A stretch of 36,900 nucleotides of DNA from Bacteroidaceae bacterium (GTDB taxonomy: Bacteria; Bacteroidota; Bacteroidia; Bacteroidales; Bacteroidaceae): NCBI GenBank assembly GCA_017483605.1, contig JAFUWG010000006.1, positions 1 to 36,900 on the forward strand, given 5' to 3'. The position numbers and the translations under genes were made by a program. The number at the start of each line of letters is the position of its first letter. Positions within the stretch are counted from its first letter, which is position 1. The notes under the pieces are model-generated. The model saw only the letters and a list, made by a program, of their open reading frames with translations, was not told the origin of the DNA and did not search any database. Shown piece after piece: positions 25,964-34,487 of this stretch.

Positions 25964-26764
25964 TTATTCAAGCAGAATGACATTTGCCGTCTGATTGTCC
26001 ATGCCAGGCATCGTCCTTCCTATTGGGGCACCGATATATGTAGGGTCGCACACCACAAACTTACGTCCATTCAGATTGATATAGTCCCCAGCCACACTTT
26101 CTGTGAATTGTACGGCAGAAGCCAAATGTCCTGGATAATAGATGAGAATGCACTTTAAGCCGAACAAGTCACGCACCAATCTCGTGAACAGTATAGACCT
26201 GTCCTCACAATCACAATACGGATAATACAAGGTTTCTTCAGGGAAGAACGCCCTGTCGCCACCCCAAACCTTATCATCATATTCATATACAAATGCTGTC
26301 TGTACCCAATTGAGCAATCGTTCGACCGCTTCTTTCTCGCTCAAAGTTTTCAACTTCTCTTTGAACATCGGCAACAGTTCTCCCCGCAATCGGTCCTCCA
26401 AAGGCATGTTGGCGTACATTGCCCATCGGGTCATGAAATTATCCTCTATCATCGATGTTGGATAATCATTCATAAAGTCAATCAGATTCCTGTTCACACT
26501 CACCTTCATTTCTATCTCAGGATAACGTTCCGCTTTTAGAGTTCTCACGTCAGAACGCCAGTTTGTCAACTCCATCGCTTGCGGAATCCAAAGCGACAGC
26601 GATTTTTCTTGTGGAAATGCCGCCTCACAGATGCTCATTCGTTCCGCATCCTCACCATACAGATAAAAGTCGCCTCCTTCAATCGAGAAATACATCTTGT
26701 CATAAATTGCATGTTTCGACGAATATAGTAGCCTTAATTTGCTGCCATCCATGCCAAGCCTCAT
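25964..26764 (-). CDS. Transglutaminase-fold protein
   Basis: Predicted 266 residues. A transglutaminase-like Cys-His-Asp triad is apparent: Cys in YPYCDCEDRSILF, His in YYPGHLASAV and Asp in VVCDPTYIGAP. This fold is found in cysteine proteases and protein cross-linkers. The N-terminal 80 residues show no signal peptide. An in-frame stop just upstream and a consensus promoter ending about 30 bp before ATG 26764 show that the protein is complete as transcribed. Related Bacteroidetes proteins that I recall are longer and exported, so a shortened cytoplasmic form is possible. The substrate is unknown. Confidence 0.65.
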   Translation of the reverse strand: MRLGMDGSKLRLLYSSKHAIYDKMYFSIEGGDFYLYGEDAERMSICEAAFPQEKSLSLWIPQAMELTNWRSDVRTLKAERYPEIEMKVSVNRNLIDFMNDYPTSMIEDNFMTRWAMYANMPLEDRLRGELLPMFKEKLKTLSEKEAVERLLNWVQTAFVYEYDDKVWGGDRAFFPEETLYYPYCDCEDRSILFTRLVRDLFGLKCILIYYPGHLASAVQFTESVAGDYINLNGRKFVVCDPTYIGAPIGRTMPGMDNQTANVILLE

Positions 26765-26823: not shown

Positions 26824-27019
26824 AAAATCTCACAAAAAATCAAAAAAACAGGTAAAAAGATGAATAAAAAAGGAGAAATAGTTCTGTATATGATGTTGAG
26901 CCTAACGAAGATGGAAAGGATAAAAAGATATCATTCTGTCCATCGGCACACATCGTGACAGCCATCTTTTACTTCTCTTAAATTTTCGTATAATGGAAGC
27001 CTCTTGTTTCTTATGCCGT

Positions 27020-27175
27020 AGATGTATCAAATATTTAGCCTGATTACACCTCAAAATTTGGCTTGAATACAACTTCCAATTTAGCCTGAATACACTAAAG
27101 TGTAATCAAGCCAAATCAATTCTTGTAATCAAGCCAAATTGTAAGTTATAATCAGGCTAAATATTTGATACATCT
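27020..27175. repeat. Six-unit inverted 23-bp repeat array
   Basis: Three head-to-tail units begin with atttagcctg / atttggcttg at 27033, 27056 and 27079. Three inverted units end at 27116, 27139 and 27162. Both halves have an exact 23-bp period, and the symmetry centre is in acactaaagtgt (27092-27103). The outermost arms (27020-27046 and 27149-27175) are perfect 27-bp inverses. The whole could form a hairpin with a stem of almost 80 bp. It starts 47 bp beyond the tex stop. It could be a strong terminator, a MITE-like element or a protein-binding array; no protein partner is evident. Confidence 0.9.
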
Positions 27176-27222
27176 GCAGCGAGAGATGACTGGGGTTACG
27201 ATATATGGTAAAAACAGGTCAT

Positions 27223-29391
27223 TCATTTTGTCCCTTTCATGCTCAACTGCATTCTGCCGCGTTGGAGGTCAACGCCGATGACACGGACGGTGACGTGCTG
27301 GTGGAGTTGCACTTCCTCGGAGGGGTCTTTCACGAAGTGGTCGGCGAGTTCGCTGATGTGGACGAGTCCTTTGGTGTGGACTCCAACATCGACGAAGCAG
27401 CCGAACTGGGTGATGTTGGTGATGATGCCTGGGAGGGTCATGCCTACCTGCACGTCTTCAAGTTCCTTCACATCTTTGGAGAACTCGAACACGGTGAGTT
27501 GCTGGCGTGGGTCGCGACCGGGTTTGTCGAGTTCCTGCATGATGTCTTCGAGGGTGGGGAGTCCCACTTTGTCAGTCACGTAGCGGTGGATGTCGATTTT
27601 CTCACGCAGTTCCTTGCTTGCCATGAGTTGGGCAACGGTACATTGTTGGTCTTTTGCCATCCGCTCGACGATGGGGTAACTCTCTGGGTGGACGGCGCTA
27701 TTGTCGAGGGGTTGCTTGCTGCCGCTCACTCGCAGGAATCCTGCTGCCTGTTCGTAGGCTTTGGGGCCCAGTTTGGGCACTTTCAGCAAATCGCGACGGG
27801 AGGAGAAGGCTCCGTTCTCGGCACGGTAGGTGACGATGTTCTGAGCAATGGCAGGACCGAGACCAGAGATGTAGGTGAGGAGGTGCTTGCTGGCGGTGTT
27901 GACGTTCACGCCCACTTTGTTCACACACATTTCCACAGTTTGGTCGAGGGAGTGTTTGAGTGCTTTCTGATCCACATCTTTCTGATACTGTCCCACACCA
28001 ATAGAGTTCGGGTCAATCTTCACCAGTTCAGCCAGAGGGTCCATGAGTCGGCGACCGATGCTGACGGCTCCACGCACGGTCACGTCGTAGTCGGGAAATT
28101 CCTCACGGGCAACTTTGGAGGCGGAGTAGATGCTGGCTCCGTCTTCGCTGACGACGAAAATCTGAATCTCCTTGGGTAACCCCAGAGAACGCACAAACTC
28201 CTCTGTCTCGCGGCTGGCTGTGCCGTTGCCGATGGAGATGGCTTCGATTTTGTATTGCTTGGTGAGTGTCCAGAGTTTGTCGGCTGCCGCACGGCGTTCG
28301 TTCTTGGGAGGGTGGGGGTAGATTGCCTCGTTGTGGAGCAGGTTGCCTTCGGCATCGAGGCAGACGACCTTGCAACCTGTGCGGAAGCCCGGGTCGAGTG
28401 CCAGCACACGCTTCTGCCCCAAGGGGGCTGCCATGAGCAGTTGTTCGAGGTTCTTCACGAAGATGCGGATGGCTTCTTTGTCAGCCTGTTCCTTGGAGAG
28501 GTTGGCAAACTCCGTCTCGATGCTGGGCTTGAGGAGACGTTTGAAACCGTCCTCGATGGCATCCCACACTAGTTCGGCGCTGCGGCTGGAGTTGCGGAGG
28601 AACTGACGGTCCAGTCGGTCGAGGCAACGTTCATCGTCGCCGCTGATGCTGACCCGCAGGATGCCCTCTGCCTCGCCTCGACGCATGGCAAGGAGACGAT
28701 GAGAGGCACACTTCGCCAATTTCTCCGAGAAGTCGAAGTAGTCACGGTATTTCTGCGCCTTCTCTTCCCATGCCTTTTCTTCCTCTTCCGTCTTCGTCTT
28801 AGGCTTCACCTTAACAGACGAAATCACGGCATCTTTCTTGAAGTTGAAGCGGACGATGTTACGGGCTTCCTCGCTTTCGCTCACTTGTTCGGCGATGATG
28901 TCCTGTGCGCCTTGGATGGCCTCGTCGGCAGTCTTCACGCCTTTCTCTTCGGAGATGAATTCCTTCACCTTCTTGTCGATGTCGGCATTGGGGTTTTGCA
29001 GCATGAGGAAGGTTGCCAATGGCTCCAGTCCTTTCTGACGTGCCACTTCTGCACGCGTCTTACGCTTGGGCTTGTAGGGCAGGTAGATGTCTTCCAGTTC
29101 GGTGCTGTCCCACGAACCCTCGATGCGGGCTTTCAGTTCGGGGGTCAGTTTCCCCTGCTCCTCGATGGTGCTGAGGATGGTCTCTTTGCGCTTCTCCAGT
29201 TCCATGAGTTTCTCCAGATGATCGTTGACGCTTGCCACCTGCACCTCGTCGAGGGTGCCTGTCACTTCCTTTCTGTATCGGCTGATGAAGGGGATGGTGC
29301 ACCCCTCTTCAAGCAGCCCCACTGTGCCTGCCACCTGCCGTTCGCTGATGCCGGTTGCCTTGGCAATGAGTTTGACAAATATATTGTTCAT
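27223..29391 (-). CDS. tex: Tex family transcription accessory / RNA-binding protein
   Basis: Predicted 722 residues starting MNNIFVKLIAKATGI; the frame is open to 29418 but includes the -7 promoter region. Tex has an N-terminal helical domain (GLLEEGCTIPFISRYRKEVTG), a YqgF/RNase H-like domain (RVLALDPGFRTGCKVVCLD), helix-hairpin-helix repeats (YISGLGPAIAQNIVTYR) and a C-terminal S1 RNA-binding domain (GIITNITQFGCFVDVGVHTK). It is a nucleic-acid-binding factor linked to transcription and stress or toxin expression in other bacteria. It stands alone, divergent from the Cthe_2159-like gene, and is followed by the 23-bp inverted array. Confidence 0.95.
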   Translation of the reverse strand: MNNIFVKLIAKATGISERQVAGTVGLLEEGCTIPFISRYRKEVTGTLDEVQVASVNDHLEKLMELEKRKETILSTIEEQGKLTPELKARIEGSWDSTELEDIYLPYKPKRKTRAEVARQKGLEPLATFLMLQNPNADIDKKVKEFISEEKGVKTADEAIQGAQDIIAEQVSESEEARNIVRFNFKKDAVISSVKVKPKTKTEEEEKAWEEKAQKYRDYFDFSEKLAKCASHRLLAMRRGEAEGILRVSISGDDERCLDRLDRQFLRNSSRSAELVWDAIEDGFKRLLKPSIETEFANLSKEQADKEAIRIFVKNLEQLLMAAPLGQKRVLALDPGFRTGCKVVCLDAEGNLLHNEAIYPHPPKNERRAAADKLWTLTKQYKIEAISIGNGTASRETEEFVRSLGLPKEIQIFVVSEDGASIYSASKVAREEFPDYDVTVRGAVSIGRRLMDPLAELVKIDPNSIGVGQYQKDVDQKALKHSLDQTVEMCVNKVGVNVNTASKHLLTYISGLGPAIAQNIVTYRAENGAFSSRRDLLKVPKLGPKAYEQAAGFLRVSGSKQPLDNSAVHPESYPIVERMAKDQQCTVAQLMASKELREKIDIHRYVTDKVGLPTLEDIMQELDKPGRDPRQQLTVFEFSKDVKELEDVQVGMTLPGIITNITQFGCFVDVGVHTKGLVHISELADHFVKDPSEEVQLHQHVTVRVIGVDLQRGRMQLSMKGTK

Positions 29392-29414
29392 TATTTTTTT
29401 AATATGTATGATGG

Positions 29415-29422
29415 GCAAAGGT
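29415..29422 (-). promoter_or_regulatory. tex -7 promoter element
   Basis: TACCTTTG on the minus strand matches TAnnTTTG and lies about 24 bp before the tex ATG at 29391. A -33 TTTG at the right spacing is not evident. No clear TAnnTTTG was found for the divergent gene at 29584. Confidence 0.5.
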
Positions 29423-31194: not shown

Positions 31195-32733
31195 TTAGTA
31201 AACAATAGTTTTTCCCACTGTTTGATGGTTGAAACTTATGATATAAATGCCAGCCGGCAAGAGGAACGTCTGGGTGTTTTGTTCCGCTCTACCATGACTC
31301 ACTCTTGTTCCATGCGTGGAATAGATGTCGATGATGCCAAAGTGAGGAGCAAAGACCGACAGATTCCCTTTCCCTGAATGAATGCTGATGCCATCCATTT
31401 GTATGTTTGTCACGTTTGTTGCATTGTACGACATATAATTTACCTCTACGGTTTCTGTTGCAACAGACATGCCCCAGAGCAAGGCATAGAGTTTGGGAGT
31501 TGAGGCTAAAGCCTTGTAATTGATATGCCCAGTTTCCTCATTCTTTTCTTTGATGACCTCTAAGGGGATTCCTGTTTCATCATAGAGGTCAAAATGTCCC
31601 TCCCCATTTACATCGAAAACGATGCTGTCTCCAAGTTCTACCTCTGCATTAAAACATTGAATAGTTCCTTGCGAGGGGGCTTTCACTTCTTCCGTTACAT
31701 TGTTTTGCAAAGGATTCGGGTGCAGCGGGACTGGAATGGTGTAGGGGAAACTCTCTGATACGATGCCCGATGAAGGATGTCCTGCGTTGTCAAATGCTTG
31801 GATGCCAAATGTCACTTGGTCGGGTACATATGCGACGCCTTCTATCACGTCAAATCGGTAATCGCTTGTGATGGTATTGGGTACTACATCCTTCACTTCA
31901 ATAACCATGTTCTGCAAATCCAACGGATTCTGTTCCCCCACCTCTACGCATACTCGCGGGCCTTGATTGAACCAGTATTCGTAGGCGGTGATGCCCGTGA
32001 TGGCTGGCTCGGTGGTGAAGTCGGGGATGACGAAATGTTTCACGAAGGGAGCGGTGTAGATGCCACGGCTGTCCACCGTGCGGTAGCCGATGGAGTGCAC
32101 GCCCTTTGCCATTGCCGAGATGTCGAGTGCCACGGCGGCATTGCCATTGGTAGACTCCAGTGTTTGGCGGTGGTCAAAGTCGTAGTCGAACCAATACTCC
32201 ATCTTGACAATCTGGTTGTCGTCGTAAGTGGCAGGTGGCAGGGTGGGGATGACAAAGTGCTTGACGAAGGGGGAGCACCACAGCCCCTTGCTGTCTCCGA
32301 AACGGAATCCGATGGAGTGCACGCCTCTCGCCATTGCCGAGATGTCAAGTGCTACAGCGGCATTACCATTGGCTGACTCCAGTGTTTGGCGGTGGTCAAA
32401 GTCGTAGTCGAACCAGTATTCCATCTTGACAATCTGATTGTTGTCGTAAGTGGCAGGTGGCAGGGTGGGGATGACAAAGTGCTTGACGAAGGGGGAGCAC
32501 CACAGCCCCTTGCTGTCTCCGAAACGGAATCCGATGGAGTGTACGCCTTGAGGCATAGCAGACACATCAAACTGGCGTTTGAACTGCTCGTTGCCGTTCA
32601 ATGCCACCGTTTTCCGATGCTCAAAGTCATAGTCAAACCAATATTCGCAGGTCTGCATCATTACCGCGTTCTGTGCTTGAGCCACACCACCTGCTATGGC
32701 AGCGGCAAACAAAATCATATTGAACTTCTTCAT
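31195..32733 (-). CDS. Secreted protein with three 74-residue repeats and sorting-like C-terminus
   Basis: Predicted 512 residues with signal peptide MKKFNMILFAAAIAGGVAQA. Three tandem repeats of 74 residues (222 bp) follow, each opening EYWFDYDFxHRxT and containing DISAMxxGVHSIGFRFGDSK (last copy diverged to YRTVDSRGIY) and FVKHFVIP. A fourth, degenerate EYWFNQGPRV starts the next domain. The C-terminus, NLSVFAPHFGIIDIYSTHGT then LLPAGIYIISFNHQ, resembles a type IX secretion signal domain. Copies two and three of the DNA repeat (about 32150-32535) are almost identical, implying recent duplication or gene conversion. It lies 20 bp after the beta-helix gene and shares its promoter. The function is not known; a beta-rich surface or adhesive role is inferred. 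Confidence 0.75.
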   Translation of the reverse strand: MKKFNMILFAAAIAGGVAQAQNAVMMQTCEYWFDYDFEHRKTVALNGNEQFKRQFDVSAMPQGVHSIGFRFGDSKGLWCSPFVKHFVIPTLPPATYDNNQIVKMEYWFDYDFDHRQTLESANGNAAVALDISAMARGVHSIGFRFGDSKGLWCSPFVKHFVIPTLPPATYDDNQIVKMEYWFDYDFDHRQTLESTNGNAAVALDISAMAKGVHSIGYRTVDSRGIYTAPFVKHFVIPDFTTEPAITGITAYEYWFNQGPRVCVEVGEQNPLDLQNMVIEVKDVVPNTITSDYRFDVIEGVAYVPDQVTFGIQAFDNAGHPSSGIVSESFPYTIPVPLHPNPLQNNVTEEVKAPSQGTIQCFNAEVELGDSIVFDVNGEGHFDLYDETGIPLEVIKEKNEETGHINYKALASTPKLYALLWGMSVATETVEVNYMSYNATNVTNIQMDGISIHSGKGNLSVFAPHFGIIDIYSTHGTRVSHGRAEQNTQTFLLPAGIYIISFNHQTVGKTIVY

Positions 32734-34270: not shown

Positions 34271-34426
34271 TTTTTTGAAAGAAAAATGGGAAAAGGACTC
34301 AAAACAGATTGATTAATTTTTGTTGTGGTCTACAAAATGATGATATTTTTTATGTTGGAAAGACGTGTGGCGATAATAAAGGGTAAGAAAAATGTTTTTG
34401 GAAGAAAGGATGGTAAAAAAACGTAC

Positions 34427-34487
34427 CCCTCGGATACGGAGTGCCATACCCGAGGGGTACGATGCGTCGGAGTCGAGGGGTACGACA
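34427..34487. repeat. Palindromic gtacccctcgg repeat cluster
   Basis: gtacccctcgg and its exact inverse ccgaggggtac (11 bp) flank a 16-bp centre, and a further cgaggggtacga copy follows. It sits between the YhcH-like terminator and the divergent-looking promoter region. It resembles the family at 6994 and 16893 only in style (cctcg...ata words), so it is listed separately. Confidence 0.6.

Follow-up and report, generated by a model that had tools for sequence, protein, structure and literature searches.

A convergent 23-bp repeat array, putatively protein-binding, carried by a dispersed BrickBuilt-like element in a Bacteroidaceae genome

Architecture of the array

The 36.9-kb stretch of DNA analyzed here (the window) contains, at positions 27020 to 27175, an array of six 16-bp units, three per direction, that converge on a central dyad. 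We regard this structure, tentatively but in preference to other readings, as a dyad-centered, putative protein-binding array within a BrickBuilt-like element that is non-coding and dispersed between genes.

In the left arm, units matching a degenerate pattern lie on the minus strand at 27033–27048, 27056–27071 and 27079–27094 (third, second and innermost from the center, respectively). Plus-strand units of the right arm lie at 27101–27116 (innermost), 27124–27139 (second) and 27147–27162 (third), the last being the sixth unit of the array and departing from the pattern by one mismatch. Pitch within each arm is exactly 23 bp and the step across the center of the window array, ACACTAAAGTGT, is 22 bp, not 23, with the six bases CTAAAG (27095–27100) in the middle of the dyad (ACA-N6-TGT). 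A first-pass annotation of this DNA had described six units at exact 23-bp spacing, three each way, with perfect 27-bp outer arms. Unit starts bear this out, with the center step at 22 bp, and the left outer arm (27020–27046) is a perfect complement of the right (27149–27175), with which it pairs. Outer units of a type termed X continue the 23-bp register of the core, one on the minus strand at 27010–27032 (CTTATGCCGTAGATGTATCAAAT), whose inner 13 bases are part of the 27-bp outer arm, and one on the plus strand at 27170–27192 (ACATCTGCAGCGAGAGATGACTG). The array is situated between a 266-aa ORF without a Pfam match (25964–26764, minus strand) and the gene encoding Tex (731 aa; 27223–29418, minus strand). 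It is the sole place in the window with a triple of direct units of equal quality at any pitch from 17 to 35, and 0 of 40 Markov-1 random windows hold a comparable triple.

The same architecture characterizes arrays elsewhere. Six genomes supplied 36 arrays for comparison; of their 200 same-direction steps, 199 measure 23 bp and one 46 bp, and the sole orientation switch of each array is convergent at 22 bp (36/36). An array of G034, visible by eye, was left out of this count because its reverse arm has degenerated beyond recognition by the pattern. The center step was also 22 bp in 13/13 cases among fourteen further rows from four genomes, which represent 10 distinct new loci given two duplicate pairs (L066/L071 and L074/L077) and the repetition of L058 as L065. 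Recognized arms hold from one to nine units. Each unit joins a 16-bp core to a seven-base spacer that is far less conserved, with identity between different loci of 0.84–0.85 for cores versus 0.34–0.43 for spacers. Core positions 1 and 3 are invariant (96/96 units) and position 5 is A or T with roughly equal frequency. In 13 of 16 arrays the two innermost units do not pair at their variable A/T position (columns 65 and 80 of alignment A1; window positions 27090 and 27105), and the inner pair tends to asymmetry there.

Conservation drops outward from the center, with units 1 to 4 of G000, the window's own genome, averaging about 1.5, 1.45, 1.3 and 0.5 bits per column, and column conservation in the outer X-type unit falling to 0.52 bits. 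The 23-bp register nonetheless extends into these diverged outer units, of which X carries TTGCCGTA and a second type, Y, carries CATCTC or GCCTC. In G000, the one genome with a clean figure for flank periodicity (G007 is nearly so; G025 and G017 figures include core units), identity at lag 23 is 0.338 in DNA 70–160 bp from the center, versus a mean of 0.269 over lags 10–59. Copies are short (100–1000 bp), non-coding, and located between genes. In G025 and G017, whole copies span approximately 330–450 bp with a leader and tail common to many loci; by eye, leader and tail seem to be inverted relatives in one register.

Distribution and neighbor genes

A search of the window's own genome (3.06 Mb, 81.5% complete) and its relatives, suggested by the first-pass annotation, revealed 8 such arrays in G000, all of them composed of six units with three per direction. 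Among 61 genomes searched, the pattern was matched in 7 of 37 from the genus, G000 included (6 of 36 others), and in 0 of 24 from other families. The unit almost never occurs alone: 42 of 42 matches in G000 fall inside its 8 arrays, as do 40 of 41 in G007. G007 and G017 each have a single unit outside known arrays, a tally that for G025 covers the matches listed, and G002 and G016 have no match to the unit in the whole genome. A scan of genome contigs for two consecutive units yielded 37 stretches in seven MAGs (Bacteroidaceae, Prevotellaceae or Bacteroidales), some of them from goat reticulum and roe-deer rumen; the names of RUG and RUI isolates suggest rumen origin. Two aspects of this distribution count against a protein-binding reading, namely that 30 of the 36 other same-genus genomes do well without arrays and that solitary units exist in G007 and G017 outside known arrays.

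Searches of viral contigs (IMG/VR) for exact pattern matches, and of phages and plasmids by blastn, returned nothing, and a phage or plasmid origin was rejected on these results. Single operators in array-free genomes were also rejected as a candidate, the dyad being missing from 20 of 25 same-genus genomes.

Of 36 neighbor proteins scanned, 25 had a Pfam match, with no common theme, and 11 had none. They include Tex, PAP2, an SNF2-type helicase, argininosuccinate synthase, GmrSD, MnmG, GH97, an epimerase (GDP-mannose dehydratase type), phosphate acetyl/butyryl transferase and BPG-independent phosphoglycerate mutase. A regulon was rejected because the neighbors with a Pfam match share no theme.

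A UG26-type reverse transcriptase (RT) (PADLOC RT_UG26, E 4e-161) with a 173-aa partner ORF (weak RTasCOG2852 match) lies between two arrays in G017 (L051:3005-5565) and behind one in G025 (L042:3029-5298). The module is also present at the same transporter without an array in G002 (L232); a further locus listed with these is L233 (G000). A link between the arrays and this enzyme was rejected, since RT presence does not track arrays in the genomes searched.

Change between species

Relatives gain and lose whole units. In seven orthologous pairs of G025 and G017 copies, gap length is a multiple of 23 in 5 of 6 cases inside arrays versus 3 of 36 in the flanks, and unit count per arm is unequal in six of the seven pairs. 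Counting all gaps in a fixed zone around arrays, the gap-to-substitution ratio (25:208) is like that of other intergenic DNA (20:152), a result that weakens the protein-binding reading; the peculiarity of the arrays resides in gap lengths. The first-pass idea of an element built by unit amplification fits this behavior of dispersed copies.

One intergenic site is occupied in three species (G000, G007 and G025; L029, L039 and L049). Here the innermost left core matches at 16/16 bases in every one of the three comparisons, the remaining cores at the two inner positions agree at 12–15 of 16 bases, and spacers at 1–6 of 7. The aligned right flank is itself 65–78% identical, which leaves a modest surplus of conservation in the cores of orthologous sites and counts against the protein-binding reading.

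Two further sites differ in occupancy. At the L048 site, the element is complete in G025 and has lost its center in G017, which keeps outer units. No unit is present there in G016 or G002, which have none genome-wide, the single dyad of G003 is on another contig, and in G007 the site is occupied by an element of another family, A (see below). Flanks of this site in G016 (L169) and G025 are 99% identical over 880 bp on the right and 86% on the left, which suggests that a tract was recently exchanged. At the transporter/UG26-RT site, arrays are present in G025 (479 bp between genes) and G017, which differ by one whole outer 23-bp unit (L042/L051), and absent in G002 (127 bp). Clean insertion ends are lacking at both sites because more of the flanking sequence also differs. 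For the window copy, a search for an empty site in 12 same-genus genomes placed the left neighbor within 1.5 kb of none of 13 other tex copies.

Alternative interpretations

Somewhat unlikely, in our judgment, is a non-autonomous, MITE-like mobile element with a trapped minisatellite and no host role, whose symmetry would reflect iterated inverted ends. Short, non-coding intergenic copies dispersed with a common leader and tail are what such an element would leave, as are site occupancy that differs between species and a variable unit number. Conservation, however, is strongest at the center and not at the ends, a site kept in three species means that at least some copies are old, and the two sites compared have no clean ends. 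The first-pass annotation had entertained a MITE and pointed to possible target duplications beside the array. The copies are indeed dispersed, short and non-coding, but the window copy has no target duplication (27015–27019, GCCGT; 27176–27180, GCAGC) and no partner transposase was found among the 25 neighbors that Pfam recognized (the other 11 gave no match). With edges shifted by up to 12 bp, the longest direct repeat flanking the window copy is 5 bp, a length equaled by 126 of 300 random edge pairs. A transposon circle junction, with tips facing across N6, was rejected because the flanks are ordinary genes.

Improbable is a selfish or neutral minisatellite palindrome in which slippage, template switching and gene conversion multiply and move the 23-bp unit with no protein involved. 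This would account for close species differing by whole units, including the outer unit at L042/L051, for the almost identical left arms of the two L051 arrays, and for partial loss of the G017 array at the L048 site. It sits poorly with a conserved core beside an unconserved spacer, with a center step that is constantly convergent at 22 bp, and with the same 23-bp pitch in unrelated sequence families; moreover, no dyad without arms was found in the same-genus genomes searched.

We find decidedly improbable an RNA or cruciform hairpin acting as a bidirectional terminator, transcript stabilizer or small-RNA precursor. The strand of the window array folds at -70.7 kcal/mol (z -16.5) and the array lies 60 bp downstream of the tex stop codon. 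Against this reading, in a gap-free alignment of the 16 arrays from G000 and G007, mirrored positions are paired in 77.3% of cells versus 78.2% after partners are shuffled, with covariation scores of 0.134 and 0.140, respectively. Permuting the arms of core units among loci likewise gave no mirrored covariation (p 0.94 for G000, 0.18 for G007); one of six permutation tests, on outer units 4–5 of G007, favored mirrored similarity (p 0.016). Pairing as such is not conserved between mirrored units, and arms are complementary because both follow one consensus. Accordingly, the hairpin proposed in the first-pass annotation finds no support in covariation, while its statement that this is not an ordinary terminator stands: a test for a GC-rich stem followed by a T run found 0 terminator-like sites at the window copy. 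Rfam returned microRNA-hairpin models alone, all 8 under the gathering score. Crude ORF calls place 9 of 37 copies between divergent gene pairs (flanking orientations at the 37 loci: ++ 16, -+ 9, -- 7, +- 5), and an intrinsic terminator was rejected on these grounds and the absence of a site at the window copy.

That arrays are landing sites for gene modules, supplying homology for recombination as with the UG26-type RT module, is hardly credible. In its favor, G017 has the order array, ORF173, RT_UG26, array, while at L088 (SRR8387717_bin.84) and L058 (G013) a single array stands between related outer flanks, and the DNA examined there contains no RT. Against it, the genomes searched include three with arrays but no RT hit (G007, G003 and G013) and one, G002, with the RT but no array, and recombination between any repeats would give the same outcome.

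Comparison with known systems

BrickBuilt of Porphyromonas gingivalis is an intergenic element with a 23-nt unit, a leader and tail, and variable unit number. It is known from one species and close kin, has been proposed as a MITE, and contains segments that drove a reporter in E. coli (PMC4596501). With it the element reported here shares a tandem 23-nt unit, as a rule without indels (here 199 of 200 steps), an intergenic location with 8–19 copies per genome, variable unit number, a leader and tail, a unit with conserved and non-conserved halves, and restriction to a narrow group in the order Bacteroidales. It differs in having two convergent arms around a fixed dyad (36/36) where BrickBuilt has one direct array, in a unit sequence that is unrelated by eye, and in outer parts that are themselves in 23-bp register. 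The two-unit BrickBuilt consensus, allowing up to 3 mismatches, is absent from G000 and 294 other genomes of the order, a draw that does not necessarily include P. gingivalis. The IS5-like terminal inverted repeat (TIR) of BrickBuilt, GAGACCTTTGCA, was not found at both ends, that is, never with one on either side of an array. TIR-like strings (up to 2 mismatches, within 350 bp) accompany 5 of 36 arrays versus 1 of 36 control stretches, and the five matches, one per array, are two orthologous pairs and one single. Unit sequence, two convergent arms and the missing TIR pair set the element apart; judged by these sequence features, it is a variant of the BrickBuilt kind and not a BrickBuilt member. 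A literature search turned up no paper describing an element of this kind in the group, and BrickBuilt was the one 23-nt relative it brought up.

The copies resemble MITEs in being short, non-coding, dispersed, inverted in symmetry and variably present; unlike MITEs, their middle is best conserved, and target duplication (window copy) and a partner transposase (neighbor genes) are lacking. REP/BIME and REPIN elements are small intergenic inverted repeats in many copies, a description that also suits the arrays, which differ in their fixed pitch and convergent arms. A Y1 transposase (PF01797) scored above the curated cut-off in 1 of 6 genomes (G000), with none in array-rich G007. Iteron arrays and multi-site operators set sites in a row with a conserved core, variable spacer and a pitch near two helical turns. 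The arrays share the core, spacer and pitch and are distinguished by many loci per genome, unrelated neighbors and convergence on one dyad.

A 23-bp pitch in unrelated families

In some genomes, families unrelated in sequence (A, B, CD, E and others) also repeat at 23 bp. We scanned intergenic DNA for three 15-bp units at any pitch from 17 to 60, counting by place and leaving out L207, L208 and L210–L212 (short contigs, that of G055 among them). Pitch 23 accounted for 23/34 places in G000, 6/9 in G007, 3/4 in G002 and 6/22 in G025, with additional places at pitch 46 numbering 3, 1, 0 and 3, respectively. Four more genomes of the genus gave 3 of 17 (G016, 1/5; G010, 1/4; G030, 0/5; G036, 1/3) and six from other families 1 of 7; the low share in other genomes of the genus weakens the protein-binding reading and means that the rule is not general there. 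A shuffled control over pitches 17–35 in the first four genomes yielded none, against a companion count in which long arrays were taken more than once.

Family A (GGTSTGASTCASACC) comprises 13 elements of three units each at exactly 23 bp in 397 kb of G000 (L098–L114). In the copies inspected, its variable positions hold either C or G, and a similar unit occurs at 24-bp pitch in G030 (L186:13379). Family B (CGTACCCSWSGGGTACG) has one copy in the window (34422–34484), consisting of three palindromic CGTACCC..GGGTACG units at 23-bp pitch. The GC-rich families include several copies situated just downstream of genes, which may be of a different nature. In G016, palindromic three-unit arrays at L178:1712 and L178:8350 have a 22-bp pitch (GAACATATGTTC; GAGTTAACTC), and the window also contains a 222-bp tandem duplication at 32087–32548 (2.1 copies, 94% matches).

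Model and significance

The window array and its relatives combine a fixed pitch, changes by whole units, a conserved core with a variable spacer, a fixed and best-conserved dyad, and next to no solitary sites, a set of features that fits a cooperative protein-binding array. Core conservation, spacer variability and fixed spacing are the signature of such an array, and of the candidates raised in the first-pass annotation this one appears to fit best in its core, spacer and pitch. Alternatively, the register could be kept by frequent copying of whole units, not by selection.

Under the protein-binding interpretation, a sequence-specific candidate protein would nucleate at the central site pair (ACA-N6-TGT) and then fill sites outward in 23-bp steps by way of the weaker outer units, and a higher-order complex would form on the intergenic DNA. 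Copies may spread by recombination or borrowed transposition activity, and unit number may shift by slippage or unequal exchange.

A broader proposal is speculative, and we think it unlikely though worth stating. The 23-bp families may be the imprint of a candidate family of multimerizing DNA-binding proteins in part of the genus, and perhaps in wider Bacteroidales, with oligomer geometry fixing the pitch, site specificity diverging, and the dyad array of the window representing one putative nucleation site. The 38-bp central dyad provides a concrete probe for seeking a protein. With a second element of unrelated sequence showing the same pitch, together with a fixed dyad and strict register, the 23-bp pitch may be a rule and not an accident.
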